A DNA stretch of 20,005 nt from a virus. This document shows positions 1,068-19,920 of the stretch, in pieces (position 1 is the stretch's first letter; each line of letters begins with the position of its first letter). The position numbers were made by a program, and so were the translations under genes. The stretch lies in IMG/VR virus record IMGVR_UViG_3300037882_001255, positions 1-20,005 of that record. One strand, given 5' to 3'. Under the pieces are notes generated by a model. The model was not told the origin of the DNA. It made no database searches and was given only the letters and a program-made list of their open reading frames with translations.

Positions 1068-3021
1068 TATCCCTGATTGGGCCGCACTGGAATTAAAGGC
1101 GTTATATGCTGAGCATGATCGGATATGGAAGACTGCACGTCCATTGGCAAAATCTATTTACACAAGAATGGGGTGGAAGCCTACGCCCCAGCAAGTGTAT
1201 AATGTATTAAACGATATCAAGCCAGAAGATATTATCACGGAGTGTGGTAAAGAGAAGCGATTCGATAGTTTTTGGGGTGGCTATCGTTTTTGTGGCAGGA
1301 CATGCGAATGTTCTCGTAAACAGGCGGCTATTAAGGGCGCGCTGACTAATACTGAACGATATGGAGTTTCATCAGCCCTCGCCCGCCCTGACATTAGAGA
1401 TAAGCGAGATCAGACTATGCTGGATCGATATGGGGTTAAGCATTCGGGTTCCAGTCCAGAATTACTTGCTAAGGCGCAGTCCACCATGTTGGAACGATAT
1501 GGTGTAGACAATTCTGGGAAGATGGCTCAAAATATTGAGCGCATGCAATCTGAAAATAACCCTAATAAATCGGAAGTCAATAAAGCAAAAACTCGTGCAA
1601 CATTGAAAGAGCGATATGGTGTTGAGAGTGTGTTCCATTCTCCTGAAGTAATGGCAAAAACTCGCAATACTATGTTGGAACGATATGGCGTCGAGAAGGC
1701 AGCACAAAATCCTGAACTTTTTGCTAAGATCAAGGCTACTAATCTCGAACGATATGGTGTGGAGTTTTTGCAGCAATCTGAAGAGATGCGCGACCGTAGT
1801 CGTGCTACTATGCAGGAACGTTATGGCGTTGATAATAGTTCTCAGGTTCCTGAGGTTATTGAGAAGCGAAAGCAGACGAATCTGGATCGATATGGGGTCG
1901 AAAGCTGTTTACGGATACCAGAGGTCGCTGCCAATATCAAAAGAAAGGCTAACAAAACAAACCTTAAGCGGTATGGCAATTCTCATATATCACATAGGCA
2001 CCTAACACCAGAAGCAGTGGAGATATTGACTAACAAAGAAATATTCACAGAATATATTGAGCATAAAGCCATTGCTACCGTTGCTAATGAATTAGGTGTT
2101 AATACAACCACAATTTACAAATATTGTGGGGAATATGGCATAGCAAACCATCGTTCCAGTTACGAACGCGAAATATTGTCGCATATACAATATGTTGATG
2201 ATATTGTAACTAATTATAGAAGACTGCAAATGCTCAATAATCATGGAAAAAAAATAACTTTTGAATTGGATTTTTATATTCCTTCACGAAACCTTGCTAT
2301 TGAGTTCAATGGTATATATTGGCACTCGGATATTTTTAAAGATCGATATTACCATCAGCGCAAATACCTTGCCTGTAAGGAACAAGGTATTCGTCTCTTG
2401 ATGATCAACGAAGACGAGTGGTTAAGAAACTCTGACGTTATCAAATCTAAGATATCTAATGTTTTGGGTAATTCCGAGAGGGGAACTCCTGCGAGGAAGT
2501 TGTCTCTACAATCTATATCACCAACGGGTGCAAATACTTTTATAGCCAGACATCATATTCAAGGAGCTACTGGATCAATCATTAATGCAGTAGCGGCATA
2601 TGACGGTGATGAATTGGTTGGTGTAATGGCTTTTAATAAGCAGCGTGGAACTGGTGATATAGAGTTGATTAGATTTTGTTCAAGTGGAAAGACTCACGCA
2701 GGGATGTTCAGCCGAATGTTCAAGTGGGCCATAAGGGAATGGAATTATGACAAGGTATTGAGCTTTGCTGATCTTCGTTATAGTGAGGGTGCAGTTTATG
2801 AGACTAATGGTTTCGAGTTGGTTAATGAGATACCGCCTGATTATCGTTATGTATTGGGTAACGAAACGTTTCACAAATCGGCCTTTACTAAGAAGAATAT
2901 TGAGAAAAAATTTAGTCTTGATATGTCCGTATTGACTGAGCGTCAGGCAATGGAAGAATTGGGAATTCCTCGCATCTATGATTGTGGGAAGTTAAAGTAT
3001 TGCTGGAATAAGACTAAATAG
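1060..3021 (+). CDS. Homing-endonuclease-like protein with ERYGV repeats and a Vsr/PD-(D/E)XK-like nuclease domain
   Basis: About 653 residues. The N-terminal part has a Cys cluster (CGKEKR...FCGRTCECS, about 1240-1315) that could bind zinc. Then come about nine copies of a 23-residue unit built on T-x-x-E/D-RYGV (about 1340-1975), and a small helix-turn-helix-like stretch (ANELGVNTTTIYKYC). The central block ELDFYIPSRNLAIEFNG-IYWHS, followed by KYLACKEQGIRLLMINEDEW (about 2260-2425), has the D...E-x-N and later E/D pattern of Vsr-like or DUF559-type nucleases. The C-terminal region (about 2490-2900) has a GNAT-like feel (VAAYDGDELVGVMAF) and its role is unknown. The start is taken as GTG 1060, overlapping the helicase stop; TTG 1048 is also possible. 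Free-standing homing endonucleases often sit beside the gene they target, here the helicase. Nuclease class is inferred from motifs only. Confidence 0.72.
   Translation: MNDIPDWAALELKALYAEHDRIWKTARPLAKSIYTRMGWKPTPQQVYNVLNDIKPEDIITECGKEKRFDSFWGGYRFCGRTCECSRKQAAIKGALTNTERYGVSSALARPDIRDKRDQTMLDRYGVKHSGSSPELLAKAQSTMLERYGVDNSGKMAQNIERMQSENNPNKSEVNKAKTRATLKERYGVESVFHSPEVMAKTRNTMLERYGVEKAAQNPELFAKIKATNLERYGVEFLQQSEEMRDRSRATMQERYGVDNSSQVPEVIEKRKQTNLDRYGVESCLRIPEVAANIKRKANKTNLKRYGNSHISHRHLTPEAVEILTNKEIFTEYIEHKAIATVANELGVNTTTIYKYCGEYGIANHRSSYEREILSHIQYVDDIVTNYRRLQMLNNHGKKITFELDFYIPSRNLAIEFNGIYWHSDIFKDRYYHQRKYLACKEQGIRLLMINEDEWLRNSDVIKSKISNVLGNSERGTPARKLSLQSISPTGANTFIARHHIQGATGSIINAVAAYDGDELVGVMAFNKQRGTGDIELIRFCSSGKTHAGMFSRMFKWAIREWNYDKVLSFADLRYSEGAVYETNGFELVNEIPPDYRYVLGNETFHKSAFTKKNIEKKFSLDMSVLTERQAMEELGIPRIYDCGKLKYCWNKTK
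3013..3020 (+). promoter_or_regulatory. Late-promoter-like octamer ACTAAATA, 5 nt before ATG
   Basis: ACTAAATA lies at 3013-3020, then five bases, then ATG 3026. The same octamer-N5-ATG layout occurs at 5463, 8829 and 14214. T4 late promoters carry TATAAATA at about -13 to -6, so +1 would fall on the A of the ATG. The octamer overlaps the end of the upstream coding region (TAG 3019-3021), so chance cannot be excluded for this single copy. Confidence 0.4.
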
Positions 3022-3025
3022 TTTG

Positions 3026-3271
3026 ATGCGAAGTTACATGGAAATTATGGAAAGTTATATGGAAAATGAGGTCAGATTACTCGTTGAAGATATCATTGAC
3101 GAGCCTGATCATGATATAGTTCATGAATTACAGGAAATAGTGTTCAAGCTGCGTTCGTATAGTGAACCAACGGGTGGTGATTATTCTATGGGGTTTGAGA
3201 GTGGGTTAGAAATGGCCTCTGCTATTATTGAAAATTTGTTAGTAAAAATTGGTGAAAAGCGTGGATCGTAA
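3026..3271 (+). CDS. Unknown small acidic protein (81 aa)
   Basis: Unrecognised. The protein is acidic and probably mostly helical (EVRLLVEDIIDEPDHDIVHE), with no membrane segment or known motif. The ATG at 3026 follows an ACTAAATA octamer by exactly five bases and has no Shine-Dalgarno site. A downstream ATG at 3059 (MENEVRLL) has a weak GGAAAG upstream and is an alternative start. The 5' end is oddly repetitive (MRSYMEIMESYMENE), as if a short SYMEIME unit had been duplicated. The 3' end overlaps the next gene. It follows the endonuclease by only 4 nt and opens the rightward block that ends with the neck protein. Confidence 0.6.
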   Translation: MRSYMEIMESYMENEVRLLVEDIIDEPDHDIVHELQEIVFKLRSYSEPTGGDYSMGFESGLEMASAIIENLLVKIGEKRGS

Positions 3272-3509
3272 GTTTTCCAGTATCTTGGATGAATTGGTTC
3301 ATTCCCCCATTCGTGACAAAGAGATGTTTATTGAGCAACGTGCTGATCAGGTAGTCGCCTCGGTTACTAATTTGCTAAAATTGATTAATGAGAGTTATGA
3401 CGAAGAAATAGCTGCTGATTTGAGTAAGCGGTTATTCAATTCCATCAGAACTAATGATTCGGAAAAATTCCGCAGAGGCATAAAGAGTATTCGTAAAGGA
3501 GACAAATGA
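3261..3509 (+). CDS. Unknown small helical protein (82 aa)
   Basis: Unrecognised. The protein is charged and probably all-helical (FSSILDELVHSP, DQVVASVTNLLKLINESY), with a basic C-terminus (RRGIKSIRKGDK). The start is uncertain: GTG 3261 is chosen because it overlaps the previous stop only slightly, but GTG 3252 and TTG 3249 are in frame. The stop TGA overlaps the next ATG as ATGA (3506-3509), which suggests translational coupling. Being flanked by tightly packed genes on both sides supports a real gene. Confidence 0.6.
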   Translation: MDRKFSSILDELVHSPIRDKEMFIEQRADQVVASVTNLLKLINESYDEEIAADLSKRLFNSIRTNDSEKFRRGIKSIRKGDK

Positions 3510-4720
3510 GTTTTTCTGAAAAATTAGATGAAGATTTGCGATCTGCTTTTCAAAAGCTCGGTGCGATGTCTCGTGCTAAAAATGCTCGTAACCGTGAGAA
3601 TACTCGGCATATGCTATGGGCGATGTTGGGAGATGCCAAATCGGCTGGCCAGCTTGATCTTAACCATATGGAGGAGCATCTCTATAGATTGTTTGCCACC
3701 TATATGGGGCGTATGTCATACGGAAGAACTGCGAAAGCATTCCTTGATTTTGTACAAGTGCTGAAGGGTGAGGAATCCGTTCCTGTTGATGTTTTGATAA
3801 ATGCCCTCAAGGGTGTTCCGAACGTAAAGAAACCGTCTCCCAATTCTCAATTGATCAAGACCATTATGGGTAAATTGATTGGTGAAAAATATGCTCCTGA
3901 AAAGATTACCAAGGCGGTTGATAAAATAGATGATCTCGCTCAAGGCAATGATGATGATAAGAACTTAATATTCGAGTATATGCGGTTATGGTCACAGCAG
4001 AATGCCGATTTATTGAATAAAACCGAGTATGCGAAGTTGATACCATATTTGGATCGAGAATTGGCCACTTCGGAATTGAAGAGAATGATGCTCGAATTGG
4101 CGAAGAATATTCTGCGCTCCAAGACCGTTCAGGAATTGACAGGTCGGGAATCTACCAGCACGGGTAAACAAGGTTCTGAGCCAGTTTCGGATAAGACGCC
4201 CCCTGTGGAAAAACAATCTTCGGATAAAAAAGGTCAGCGCATATCTCGTGGAACATATATGCATAATTTGGAAGAACTGATGTTCTATGATGATATCCAT
4301 AACAGATATCGTAGTTCATCCGTTGCGGAATCTGAAAAACCATGGGCTAATTATTGGAATAAAATTGCACCAGACGAGATAATGTCTAAGTTCTCAGATA
4401 GTGATCGTATAAATCTTATTTCAGCTAATATAATGTCATTGATGTTAGTTTGGAATTATCCTCAAATGACTGAAACACAATTCGTGGGGACAGTTTTGAG
4501 TATTGAAGCATTAGTAATACATCTTAATAAAATGAAACGAGATAATCTACAAACCCTCCGTTTGCGCATTATTCAAGGAGAAACTCCTGAAGAAATTGCT
4601 AAAGAATTCGGTAAATTATATAATACCAAAAATGAATCAGCCCGCTGGCTGTGTGCGTTATTGGCATTCGAAAATAGATTATGGTACGCAAAGAATAAGA
4701 AGCCTGATGAAAATACTTAA
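3506..4720 (+). CDS. Unknown phage protein (404 aa)
   Basis: Unrecognised large protein. The start ATG overlaps the upstream stop (ATGA), with AAAGGAGACAA just before it as a good ribosome binding site. The N-terminal half (to about residue 215) looks helical and charged. A low-complexity polar linker follows (about residues 215-245: TSTGKQGSEPVSDKTPPVEKQ), then a second helical domain with ILVWN-type hydrophobic segments but no clear transmembrane helix. The two-domain layout with a flexible linker would suit a structural or assembly protein, but nothing shows the function. The next gene starts inside its 3' end at 4707. Confidence 0.8.
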   Translation: MSFSEKLDEDLRSAFQKLGAMSRAKNARNRENTRHMLWAMLGDAKSAGQLDLNHMEEHLYRLFATYMGRMSYGRTAKAFLDFVQVLKGEESVPVDVLINALKGVPNVKKPSPNSQLIKTIMGKLIGEKYAPEKITKAVDKIDDLAQGNDDDKNLIFEYMRLWSQQNADLLNKTEYAKLIPYLDRELATSELKRMMLELAKNILRSKTVQELTGRESTSTGKQGSEPVSDKTPPVEKQSSDKKGQRISRGTYMHNLEELMFYDDIHNRYRSSSVAESEKPWANYWNKIAPDEIMSKFSDSDRINLISANIMSLMLVWNYPQMTETQFVGTVLSIEALVIHLNKMKRDNLQTLRLRIIQGETPEEIAKEFGKLYNTKNESARWLCALLAFENRLWYAKNKKPDENT

Positions 4721-14530: not shown

Positions 14531-14701
14531 GTGCGCCTCAGCATTACTGCTTTGGATTTCCATGATTGGAAAGAAATTCATCAATGGATTGGTGAAAATC
14601 TTCAAGCCCAGCGAGGTAAGGATTATTATATCTGCTCAACGGGATTTGTTGATTTTGCTATAGAAGAAGATGCAATATTATTTTTTATGAGGTACGTATG
14701 A
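14531..14701 (+). CDS. Tiny accessory protein of the 'EEDA-x-x-F-x-x-RY' family (56 aa)
   Basis: GTG 14531 is chosen, with AAGGTGGAGA directly upstream; the frame is open to ATG 14489, which sits in a stable hairpin. The protein begins MRLSITALDFHDW (GTG read as Met) and ends VDFAIEEDAILFFMRYV. That ending is shared in pattern with the small proteins at 15624-15857, 16522-16746 and 16730-16960, suggesting paralogues with an alpha/beta fold. The stop overlaps the release-factor start (ATGA 14698-14701), so the two are probably translationally coupled. Function unknown. Confidence 0.6.
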   Translation: MRLSITALDFHDWKEIHQWIGENLQAQRGKDYYICSTGFVDFAIEEDAILFFMRYV

Positions 14702-15342
14702 AGATTGAAATTAGGCCCGGTCAGGGCGGCGAAGACTCCAAGTTGTTTATGAATGATTTGGCTAACGTGTATGAGAAATATTTGACTCAAAAAGGTTGAC
14801 TGCACCAAACGGTTCGGTCAGATTCCATCATAGTTATTGAAACTGACCGTATTGATGCATTCGTTAATGAGGTTGGTTGTCATAGAATACAAAGAGTTCC
14901 ACCCACTGAAAAAAGAGGAAGAGTTCATACATCCACTGTTAAGGTGTCTGTTATCAATGAAACGAAGGTTCGTAAATTACAGATACGAGATAGTGATTTT
15001 GAGGTAAGATTCCATAGAGGCACGGGTAAAGGTGGCCAACGTAAAAATAAAGTCGCAACTTGTTGTGTAGTTAAACATATCCCAAGTGGGATGACGCAAA
15101 AAGCTGATGGGCGCTCTCGGATAGATAATGAAGAGGAAGCAAAGAGAAACCTTATTGAACGCCTTGAACTTGAGTTCAATTCCGCCCATAGTATGGTTAT
15201 TAATGAGGTTCGTTGCAATCAGCTTCAAGAAGATAGGAATAGACTATATCGGTTTCAAAATGATGAAGTAATAGATTATAGATCAGGAAAAACCATGTCC
15301 TTGAAGCATTTTATGCGTGGACAATTGGAAAAATTGTGGTAA
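14698..15342 (+). CDS. prfA: RF1-type peptide chain release factor with an in-frame UGA at codon 34
   Basis: Release factors hydrolyse peptidyl-tRNA at stop codons. Translating 14698-15342 in one frame gives a 214-residue protein if TGA 14797-14799 is read as an amino acid. Before it: MKIEIRPGQGGEDSKLFMND (matches RF1 'EVRAGTGGDEAALFAGD') and YEKYLTQKG. After it: GCHRIQRVPPTEKRGRVHTS, with P-x-T (PPT) as in RF1, which reads UAA/UAG, not the SPF of RF2. GTGKGGQRKNKV (about 15023-15058) carries the catalytic GGQ. The end DRNRLYRFQNDEVIDYRSG matches the RF1 C-terminus. The UGA falls where E. coli RF1 has Trp (ARRWRVE). Its context is UGA-C, a leaky one. The protein lacks RF1 domain 1, so it is short. 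Readthrough, a recent nonsense mutation, or a sequencing error could each explain the TGA; a frameshift cannot. Confidence 0.82.
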
Positions 15343-16974: not shown

Positions 16975-17068
16975 GGAGGATGTATCAGACAGGCGCGCCG
17001 CCCTCGTTTTGAAAACGAGTGATGTCCACGAGAGTGGCATGGGGTTCGAGACCACCCATCCTCCTCCA
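16975..17068 (+). tRNA. tRNA-Ser(TGA), unusual architecture
   Basis: Anticodon stem CTCGT/ACGAG with loop TTTGAAA, long variable arm ATG(t)CCAC-GAGA-GTGGCAT, encoded CCA. Oddities: the acceptor can pair over 8 bp (GGAGGATG/CATCCTCC), the T-stem GGGG/CC(A)CC needs a bulged A, and no standard D-stem is visible. The discriminator is T instead of the usual G. Reads TCA. Confidence 0.8.
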
Positions 17069-17732: not shown

Positions 17733-18886
17733 ATGTCACTACGTTTAACAATGATCATCGGGTAATAGGCCCACAATTAGATTTATTTCATATAGACGAA
17801 AATGCCGCTGGAAGTGTATTCTGGCACAACAATGGATATATTCTTTACCGTATCGTAGAAGAATATATACGTTCTGAACTTAGACAGAACGATTATGAGG
17901 AAGTCCGTTCTCCTCAACTATTCCGATCAGATTTATGGGAACAATCAGGTCACATGGATCACTATGCGGACAATATGTATCAGGTAGACGAGTTTCTACT
18001 CAAACCGATGAATTGTCCCGCCCACGCTTTAATTTTCAAGAAAAAGGTAAATTCTTACCGTGATCTTCCGAGAAGAATTTCCGAATTTGGATGCTGCCAT
18101 AGAAATGAACCATCGGGTTCTCTTCATGGTCTTATGCGCGTTCGTCAGTTTGTTCAAGACGATGCCCATATCTTTTGCGAAGAACATCAAATTGAAAGTG
18201 AAGTTAGATCGTTTTGTCAAATGCTCAAACGTGGGTATAGCCGTTTCGGATTTGATGATGTCAAAGTAGCATTATCTCTACGACCCCGAGATAGAGCAGG
18301 AGATGATCTCTTATGGGATAAGAGTGAGAAAGCATTGGAAAAATGCCTCATTGATTCTAATATCCCTTACGATATACAAGAAGGTGAAGGAGCATTCTAT
18401 GGCCCCAAGTTAGAATTTTCTCTTAAAGATTCTCAAGATCGTTGGTGGCAATGCGGGACGCTACAGCTTGATTTTGTGTTACCATCAAGACTTGGTGTTA
18501 GCTACATGGATCGAAATGGATCAAAAGCTCATCCCGTTATGATCCATAGAGCCATACTGGGTTCGCTGGAAAGGTTTATCGCAATTCTCTTAGAACATTA
18601 TGGCAAAGATTTACCTGATTGGTTATGTCCAGTTGAAATTGCTCTCCTACCAGTAAACGAGAATTTTATTGAATTCTGTCAAGAGATAAAAAGATCATCC
18701 AGTAGACGAATAGAAATCTACCCTGATGAATCTATTTCCAAACGTGTTAGAAATGGCAGCAAGCGTGGGATACCATATGTGATCGTGGTAGGAGAAAAGG
18801 AACAAGCAAGCGGTCAGATGAACGTCAGAAAGAAAGGTTCTGAATACATTTTGATAGATGGTATAGATGGCATTGATGATTTGTGA
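17733..18886 (+). CDS. thrS: Threonyl-tRNA synthetase core, start out of frame with the body (-1 shift needed)
   Basis: ThrRS charges tRNA-Thr. The body frame reads DHRVIGPQLDLFHID (E. coli 'DHRKIGKQLDLYHM') from 17753 to 18886, giving the class II catalytic core and the anticodon-binding domain. Visible: KPMNCPAH, motif 2 FGCCHRNEPSGSLHGLMRVR, DDAHIFC, VMIHRAILGSLERF (motif 3). The three zinc ligands (Cys of MNCP, His of DDAH, His of MIH) are kept. The TGS and editing domains are absent, so mischarged Ser-tRNA-Thr would not be cleared by this protein. The only well-placed start, ATG 17733 after AGGAGG, reads MSLRLTMIIG then TAA; the body lies in the -1 frame, with no ATG before 17954, which would remove motif 1. 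A -1 slip at T-TTA (17744-17747) would join them. Alternatives are a non-ATG start (ACG 17741), a sequence error, or a decayed gene. Confidence 0.85.
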
Positions 18887-18919: not shown

Positions 18920-18942
18920 CACATCATTCATTGGAGAATTAT

Positions 18943-19362
18943 ATGAAATTAATCACCACACCCCGTCCAGAAGATGATTTAGCCGAGTTCGGTGAACTGT
19001 TGAAGTTCACTGCCTTGGTCTACGTGGATGACAGCGAAGGCGAGCCATCCATGTTTGAAGGTTACAACATGGATGGTGATGTGGCTTTCTTTGACGATTT
19101 GTCTCTTGCGGAAGAAGCATTTGATCAATATATCGTCCACCTCAAAGAGGCCGAAGATGATTTTATTGATAACGGTGATGAGGAGGGTATGGTTGCTCTC
19201 TTCAATACACCAAAAGGGTATTTGGTCCTCGCCACCTCTACTCTTATGGGTTTCTCCGATATTGAAATGTTATCAACTGCAACACATTTCTGTCCGGGCA
19301 TGCCACACGTGACTTGGAATAGAATTATAATTGATATGTTTGATGAGGATATGGAAGAATGA
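18943..19362 (+). CDS. Unknown acidic protein (139 aa)
   Basis: Unrecognised. ATG 18943 (MKLITTPRPEDDL) has GGAGA 7 nt upstream; the frame is open to a TTG at 18931 inside that site. The protein is strongly acidic throughout (KEAEDDFIDNGDEEG, DMFDEDMEE at the end), with a few beta-like segments (ALVYVDDSEGE, YLVLATSTLMG). The stop overlaps the next start (ATGA 19359-19362). It has its own promoter directly after thrS. Acidic small phage proteins are often DNA mimics or inhibitors of host proteins, but nothing specific supports that here. Confidence 0.7.
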   Translation: MKLITTPRPEDDLAEFGELLKFTALVYVDDSEGEPSMFEGYNMDGDVAFFDDLSLAEEAFDQYIVHLKEAEDDFIDNGDEEGMVALFNTPKGYLVLATSTLMGFSDIEMLSTATHFCPGMPHVTWNRIIIDMFDEDMEE

Positions 19363-19763: not shown

Positions 19764-19920
19764 GCGCCTGTAGCTCAATGGTAGAGCCGTCCGCTCATTC
19801 CCTACGATTGTAGGAAATACAAATGATGATTAGTCATCATTTGTTTATTTTTACACGTGATTTGGTTCACGTATAAAAATAACGGATAGGTTGGGGGTTC
19901 GAATCCCTCCGGGCGCACCA
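19764..19920 (+). tRNA. tRNA (CAT; Met or Ile2) interrupted by an 82-nt structured insert in the anticodon loop
   Basis: All arms are canonical: acceptor GCGCCTG/CGGGCGC, D-stem GCTC/GAGC, anticodon stem GTCCG (19789-19793)/CGGAT (19883-19887), T-stem GGGGG/CCCTC, encoded ACCA. The loop region holds 89 nt in place of 7. Removing 82 nt (for example 19799-19880) restores CTCATAA, the usual loop of CAT tRNAs. The exact ends are ambiguous by an AT shared at both junctions. Whether the isoacceptor is elongator Met or lysidine-modified Ile2 cannot be decided. The stem lacks the three G-C pairs of an initiator. Confidence 0.85.
19799..19880 (+). other. 82-nt intron-like insert made of three hairpins
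   Basis: Hairpin 1: CCTAC-GATT-GTAGG (19801-19814). Hairpin 2: a perfect 11-bp stem with loop TTAG (19819-19844). Hairpin 3: 15 pairs plus one C-A mismatch, loop TTTGGT (19846-19881, extending by T845-A882). Hairpin 3 ends next to the 3' strand of the anticodon stem. It is too short for a group I intron and lacks the terminal G. No bulge-helix-bulge is evident. Confidence 0.7.

Follow-up and report, generated by a model that had tools for sequence, protein, structure and literature searches.

A split tRNA gene in a fragment of a large myovirus

The stretch of DNA analysed here (20,005 nucleotides, hereafter the window) is a 20-kb virus fragment. At positions 19764-19920 of the plus strand it carries a tRNA(CAT) gene with a full cloverleaf and an encoded CCA end, whose anticodon loop is split by an 82-nt insert. 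The parts of the gene are:

19764-19793 (+): tRNA 5′ half with acceptor 5′ strand, D arm and 5′ strand of the anticodon stem (GTCCG, 19789-19793), from the RF00005 alignment and the fold
19794-19798 (+): 5′ part of the anticodon loop, C32 T33 C34 A35 T36 (CTCAT), from the sequence; CTCATTC is identical in loci L064 and L086
19799-19880 (+): 82-nt insert for a junction at 36^37, from ARAGORN with introns and the junction table
19798-19879 (+) or 19797-19878 (+): the same insert for a junction at 35^36 or 34^35, respectively, from the junction table
19801-19814 (+): hairpin 1, CCTAC-GATT-GTAGG, 5 bp, from the fold
19819-19844 (+): hairpin 2, 11 bp with the loop TTAG, from the fold; also a weak terminator-like site
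19845-19882 (+): hairpin 3, 15 bp (9+6) around one C.A mismatch, from the fold
19883-19920 (+): tRNA 3′ half with anticodon-stem strand CGGAT, variable loop, T arm, acceptor strand, A73 and encoded CCA, from the Rfam alignment and the sequence

Positions 19764-19917 scored 51.4 bits against RF00005 (Rfam gathering threshold 29), with the loop aligned as a long insertion. Besides a cloverleaf above the Rfam cut-off, the gene has T33, a purine at position 37 and CCA. ARAGORN missed it when introns were disallowed and called a tRNA-Met(cat) with an 82-nt intron when they were allowed. The whole gene folds at -60.9 kcal/mol (z -6.4, equalled by none of 200 shuffles), and the insert folded alone reaches z -5.9 (none of 500 shuffles). 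In the predicted structure, the anticodon stem of a cloverleaf bears three adjacent hairpins, and A37-A38 of the tRNA loop are paired within the 3′ strand of hairpin 3. An Rfam scan of the gene gave the insert no significant match to any family besides tRNA, and a second copy of the insert was absent from the window and from the other fetched loci compared.

Sequence, Rfam, ARAGORN with introns and the fold thus agree with an earlier sequence-only reading, which had described a canonical CAT tRNA with an 82-nt insert of three hairpins at these coordinates. As that reading proposed, removal of the insert restores the loop CTCATAA; the junction is not unique, since 34^35, 35^36 and 36^37 are equally good. 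The hairpin stems had been called perfect, which does not apply to hairpin 3 with its C.A mismatch and its 3′ strand taking in A37-A38.

A DnaB-type helicase in the window shares 57% identity with that of the Agrobacterium jumbo phage Atu_ph07 and 54% with those of Phosso and PA5oct, and a neck protein shares 40-43% with its counterparts in the same three phages. We place the window among the large T4-related myoviruses of the RaK2/Atu_ph07 kind, as a fragment of one such genome. AUA accounts for 94 of the 350 isoleucine codons in the window (27%), so that an AUA-reading tRNA-Ile2 would be useful.

Standard tools detected eight other tRNAs in the window, which also encodes a threonyl-tRNA synthetase (17733-18886) preceded by three tRNA-Thr genes. 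The catalytic domain of this phage enzyme is open from 17735, and the Shine-Dalgarno/ATG start at 17733 is out of frame with it, indicating a frameshift, an odd start or a sequencing error. A likely tRNA-Ser(TGA) with a long variable arm (16975-17068) was missed by both ARAGORN and Rfam. The release-factor gene at 14698-15342 (PCRF and RF-1 domains) contains an in-frame TGA at a likely Trp position (KGW) of RF1/RF2. TGA is the usual stop in the window (14 of 22 ORFs); read-through, autoregulation and assembly error are candidate readings of the internal codon. Searches for relatives with the neighbouring ORF (18931-19362) and the synthetase as probes yielded zero loci.

The three-hairpin design recurs in a second phage lineage

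The sequence-only reading had suggested searching other phage tRNAs for a like insert. Scanning 2.9 million viral contigs with a D-arm + CTCATY pattern gave 31 matches, many of which look like group I introns (confirmed by Rfam for L059). Three Acidobacteria MAGs sharing the D arm and CTCATTC were likewise judged to carry group I introns by length and sequence. The search did reveal the three-hairpin design, in another sequence, in two near-identical IMG/VR contigs (L064 and L086), where the same loop of a similar tRNA(CAT) is split by 117-121 nt. This insert is bordered by CTCATTC and ATAACGG and consists of a short hairpin, a 17-bp hairpin and a hairpin of about 20-22 bp, in this order (z -10.3 for the L064 insert fold). 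The stem sequences of the window and of L064/L086 are unrelated and the insert lengths differ (82 versus 117-121 nt); common to both are the three-hairpin architecture, the loop bases and the CAT anticodon. One reservation concerns L064: when its gene is folded as a whole, the minimum-energy structure has another pairing in place of the anticodon stem, although the five pairs of that stem are available.

The insert-free tRNAs of the window and L064 reach a mutual score of 46. Since the best other tRNA among those compared scores 45 against the window (PA5oct Arg) and 36 against L064, what we claim is a similarity of type, short of established orthology. No covariation is gained from the pair L064/L086, given their identity of 97-99.7%, and we saw the three-hairpin form in these two lineages only. 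An uninterrupted orthologue that would fix the junction was sought and not found; synteny around L064, followed via its ATPase gene, led to relatives without the split tRNA. An exact pattern of both window tRNA halves around a 50-80-nt gap gave zero matches. A whole-gene similarity search in 50,697 phage records returned ordinary tRNA halves and one Ackermannviridae tRNA-like element, which is not the same thing as the split tRNA. Because the same design occurs with unrelated hairpin sequences in another phage lineage, the window insert probably represents a new variety of removable small introns in tRNAs, a type reported from phages in just a few cases, all unexplained.

Some neighbouring RNAs and genes were recorded as well. 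A permuted tmRNA adjoins the split tRNA of L064/L086 (L064 6211-6425, minus strand) and also matches the alphaproteobacterial tmRNA model. L064 further encodes an RNA-binding protein (phrog_850, perhaps Ro60-like; 2825-4279, minus strand), and a partial tRNA-like match next to this gene (4448-4508, minus strand) is perhaps a Y RNA. In L001, an element of 189 nt at 1353-1541 (GTTCCCG...CAGGGAACACCA) is tRNA-like, unannotated as RNA and conserved in Ackermannviridae-type phages of Dickeya, Salmonella, Klebsiella and Enterobacter.

Other short inserts split phage tRNAs

A scan of about 3.4 Mb of phage DNA revealed further short structured inserts in tRNA anticodon loops. A strict split-cloverleaf search for inserts of 10-200 nt yielded 33 matches across 4.5 Mb of real strands, versus none in 22.4 Mb of Markov-shuffled sequence; the scanned loci had been preselected by tRNA patterns, so the 33 matches are not a frequency. 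The sixth loop base is also biased by the D-arm/YTNNNT and CTCATY patterns in L064, L086, L104, L129 and L160, while it is free of this bias in the window, L163 (3631), L286 and the Atu_ph07 cases.

Reading the sequences by eye, without clustering, we distinguish three groups of inserts. Plain hairpins occur in the window, L064, L086, L104, L129, L160, L163 (at 3631) and L286 (at 14068). L238, L140 and L143 hold nested tRNAs or minihelices with ACCA at the end, and tRNA-like elements follow a TACRG motif in L127, L186, L222, L293, L208 and the Lak-A1 phage (L047).

The tRNA at L238 25-177 holds an apparently complete second tRNA in its anticodon loop; this ends in ACCA, so that the insert may coincide precisely with a processed tRNA (exons CTT + ATAA). 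The inserts of L140 (3032-3157, minus strand) and L143 (241-364, minus strand) are shaped like acceptor-stem minihelices with a final ACCA. Those of L222, L127, L186, L293 and L208 start near TACGG/TACAG and continue with a hairpin and a tRNA-like T-arm domain; several copies of this type lie within one 393-kb phage record (G018). Two tRNA-like sequences (L109 6991-7115; L107 8882-9007, minus strand) have a conserved domain in place of the anticodon loop, with small hairpins closed by CTCC/GGAG, with a similar stretch downstream. We dropped several low-scoring splits, among them L074, L135 and L294, which look like combined arms of ordinary tRNAs, and L215 and L152, which are long perfect hairpins without CCA. 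An empty allele was sought near L163 and in Atu_ph07, and none was found.

In the window and in L064 the anticodon is CAT whether the cut lies at 34^35, 35^36 or 36^37. Elsewhere the junction is required at 34^35 (two Leu(UAA) genes), 35^36 (Asn and Lys of Atu_ph07) or 36^37 (Lak Thr). Junctions thus vary between split tRNAs and seemingly have no single position, unlike in archaea and eukaryotes.

Split tRNAs fill missing isoacceptor slots

Three unannotated split tRNAs were found in Atu_ph07, all readable at 35^36 and appearing as over-long Rfam tRNA matches:

L272 4103-4224 (-): split Asn(GUU), 46-nt insert with a T-arm-like minihelix inside
L045 10106-10214 (-): split Thr(UGU), 33-nt insert
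L241 3060-3184 (-): split Lys(UUU), 48-nt insert

Threonine is read here from G1-C72, C2-G71 and the loop; with other junctions the gene would be Ser, Ile or Met. According to its genome paper, Atu_ph07 has tRNAs for every amino acid but asparagine and threonine (PMC6102473). Intact copies were likewise not found in the same record for the split Gly(UCC), Glu(UUC), Asn(GUU) and Arg(UCU) of G018, the split Pro(UGG) and Arg(UCU) of G017, or the split Leu(UAA) of G020 and of G024. Hence all 11 nameable split isoacceptors of these five phages lack a detected intact copy in their own record, in a post hoc comparison that includes some incomplete records and excludes the unassignable splits (L104, L129, L160, L140, L238, L278 and the second in L163). 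One of these, L129, would be redundant if read as CAT, as G020 has three intact CAT tRNAs. Since phage tRNA sets are rarely redundant, slot filling is what is expected of working genes, without being proof of function.

Is the insert removed?

We lean towards reading the window gene as a real phage tRNA whose CAU anticodon belongs to a tRNA-Ile2 that reads AUA or to an elongator tRNA-Met, with a small, structured and removable intron within positions 34-37. For the choice between these two identities, which also involves TilS modification of C34 to lysidine, we considered the pairs C4-G69 and C5-G68 and A73, seen in both the window and L064. This reading is based on sequence comparison and we hold it somewhat more probable than its negation. 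Of the options in the sequence-only reading, a tRNA intron unlike the group I, group II and bulge-helix-bulge types is the best supported, by the design in a second lineage and by slot filling.

Unlikely, though the strongest of the alternatives, is an unspliced structured RNA on a tRNA scaffold. In this case a three-hairpin RNA, displayed in the place of the anticodon loop and released and protected through RNase P and the CCA end, would act as a regulator or as a decoy for tRNA-targeting defence nucleases. Its architecture is very stable and conserved, the pairing of A37-A38 inside hairpin 3 fits, and artificial tRNA scaffolds whose anticodon arm carries an RNA insert are stable in bacteria. 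Phage tRNAs have also been proposed to evade tRNA-targeting defences via changes in the anticodon loop (PMC10264068). However, the loop bases CTCAT and TAA are exact in both lineages, although a scaffold needs neither, and missing isoacceptor slots are filled by other split tRNAs.

The sequence-only reading had also considered that an inserted element disables the tRNA. A hairpin element that arrived recently or is decaying would, as a one-off event, require no other copy, and the few bases of ambiguity at the borders would fit a short target duplication. But both tRNA halves are intact, as are every stem and the CCA, further copies of the insert are absent from the window and the loci compared, and the same design recurs with different sequence in the second lineage. 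We therefore regard a killed tRNA as improbable.

Still less credible is a ribozyme, self-splicing or self-cleaving, of a size below that of all known introns. Group I introns of tRNA-Leu(UAA) also lie at 34^35, and one phage tRNA from the same scan (L059) does carry a group I intron. Against this, an insert of 82 nt is too small for a group I core, group I, group II and ribozyme families gave no match even at an E-value limit of 5, and stem sequences unrelated between the two lineages leave no conserved catalytic core visible. A conditional terminator that regulates synthesis of the tRNA (hairpin 2 followed by a T-rich run; terminator-like site 19819-19844, tail TTATTTTTAC) is the least plausible reading by our estimate, given just three G-C pairs, a chance expectation of 0.6 such sites in this stretch and no T run after hairpin 2 of L064.

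A possible protein route of splicing

For the removable intron, a protein route is the likeliest, as we see no conserved core, no group I or group II match and no bulge-helix-bulge. Provided that the split gene is transcribed, the tRNA body would fold and the three hairpins of the insert would stick out of its anticodon loop. Nucleases would cut at the borders between loop and insert, the two tRNA halves would remain base-paired, forming a nicked tRNA, and a phage RNA ligase of the T4 type (Rnl1 or Rnl2) would join them into a decoding tRNA. The sequence-only reading had named RNase III cleavage plus ligation as a conceivable route; of its components, RNA ligases do occur in several of these phages. 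Host RNases leaving 3′-OH and 5′-P would produce ends that such a ligase could join directly; other cleavage ends would need T4 Pnkp-like healing.

The Rnl1 family PF09511 was found in Atu_ph07, Phosso and the L160 phage, and PF09414 in Atu_ph07, Phosso, Lak-A1, G018, G021, G023 and G026. RtcB was found in none of 15 records, and the 51.6-kb L064 contig has no ligase of these three families. RNA ligases are common in jumbo phages and several fragments are without them, so their presence is permissive and weak evidence only.

More generally, and more tentatively, phages may have a tRNA splicing of their own, in which varied structured inserts (plain hairpins, nested tRNAs or minihelices ending in ACCA, tRNA-like elements behind TACRG) are excised from anticodon loops by RNases, after which T4-type RNA ligases seal the halves; on present sequence data we give this rather less than an even chance. 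Among tRNA introns of bacteria, hardly any but self-splicing group I introns are known. If true, the general proposal would mean that tRNAs are spliced by proteins in bacteria with no tRNA-splicing endonuclease of known type, and would give a routine job to phage RNA ligases besides repair. Removal of the window insert would likewise imply that some phages splice tRNAs with proteins and that published phage tRNA counts (for example of Atu_ph07) omit interrupted genes. As Atu_ph07 and its Agrobacterium C58 host are in culture, the long-standing question of the normal role of phage RNA ligases is directly testable.

Comparison with known systems

Like the window insert, group I introns (RF00028) lie in the anticodon loop, also in CAT tRNAs. 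They measure about 190-260 nt and have a core, whereas the window insert has 82 nt and matches neither RF00028 nor, with the whole gene as query, the Rfam group II families up to E = 5, which supports the earlier view that it resembles neither class.

Archaeal and eukaryotic tRNA introns are small, lie in the anticodon loop and are removed by proteins, as we propose for the window. They usually sit at 37^38; the window junction, in contrast, lies within 34-37. A bulge-helix-bulge (3-nt bulge, 4-bp helix, 3-nt bulge) is absent by eye from the minimum-energy fold of the window gene, and the sequence-only reading had not seen a clear one either.

The anticodon-loop tRNA repair by T4 Pnkp/Rnl1 would provide the sealing step, and the Rnl1 family occurs in Atu_ph07 and Phosso, as described above. 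This system is known for the repair of nicks, not for the removal of inserts.

Closest are the introns of Lak megaphage tRNAs, short unclassified anticodon-loop inserts for which Devoto et al. (2019) predicted splicing (PMC6784885). Together with the further short inserts found here, they make the earlier statement that phage tRNAs normally lack such small introns too strong. Among the open-access main texts searched, we found no report of three-hairpin inserts or of split tRNAs in Atu_ph07. Lak introns share with the window insert the short length, the position in the anticodon loop, the lack of a known RNA family and the occurrence in large phages, and Lak-A1, like Atu_ph07 and Phosso, encodes an RNA ligase gene. 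The Lak Thr(TGT) intron (114 nt) contains a tRNA-like element and begins TTACAATC, whereas the window insert begins (A)TTCCC and has three plain hairpins with no T-arm-like TTCRA loop. The Lak introns are thus the closest precedent, itself still unexplained, and the window holds a three-hairpin variant of this barely described kind, most likely a removable intron.
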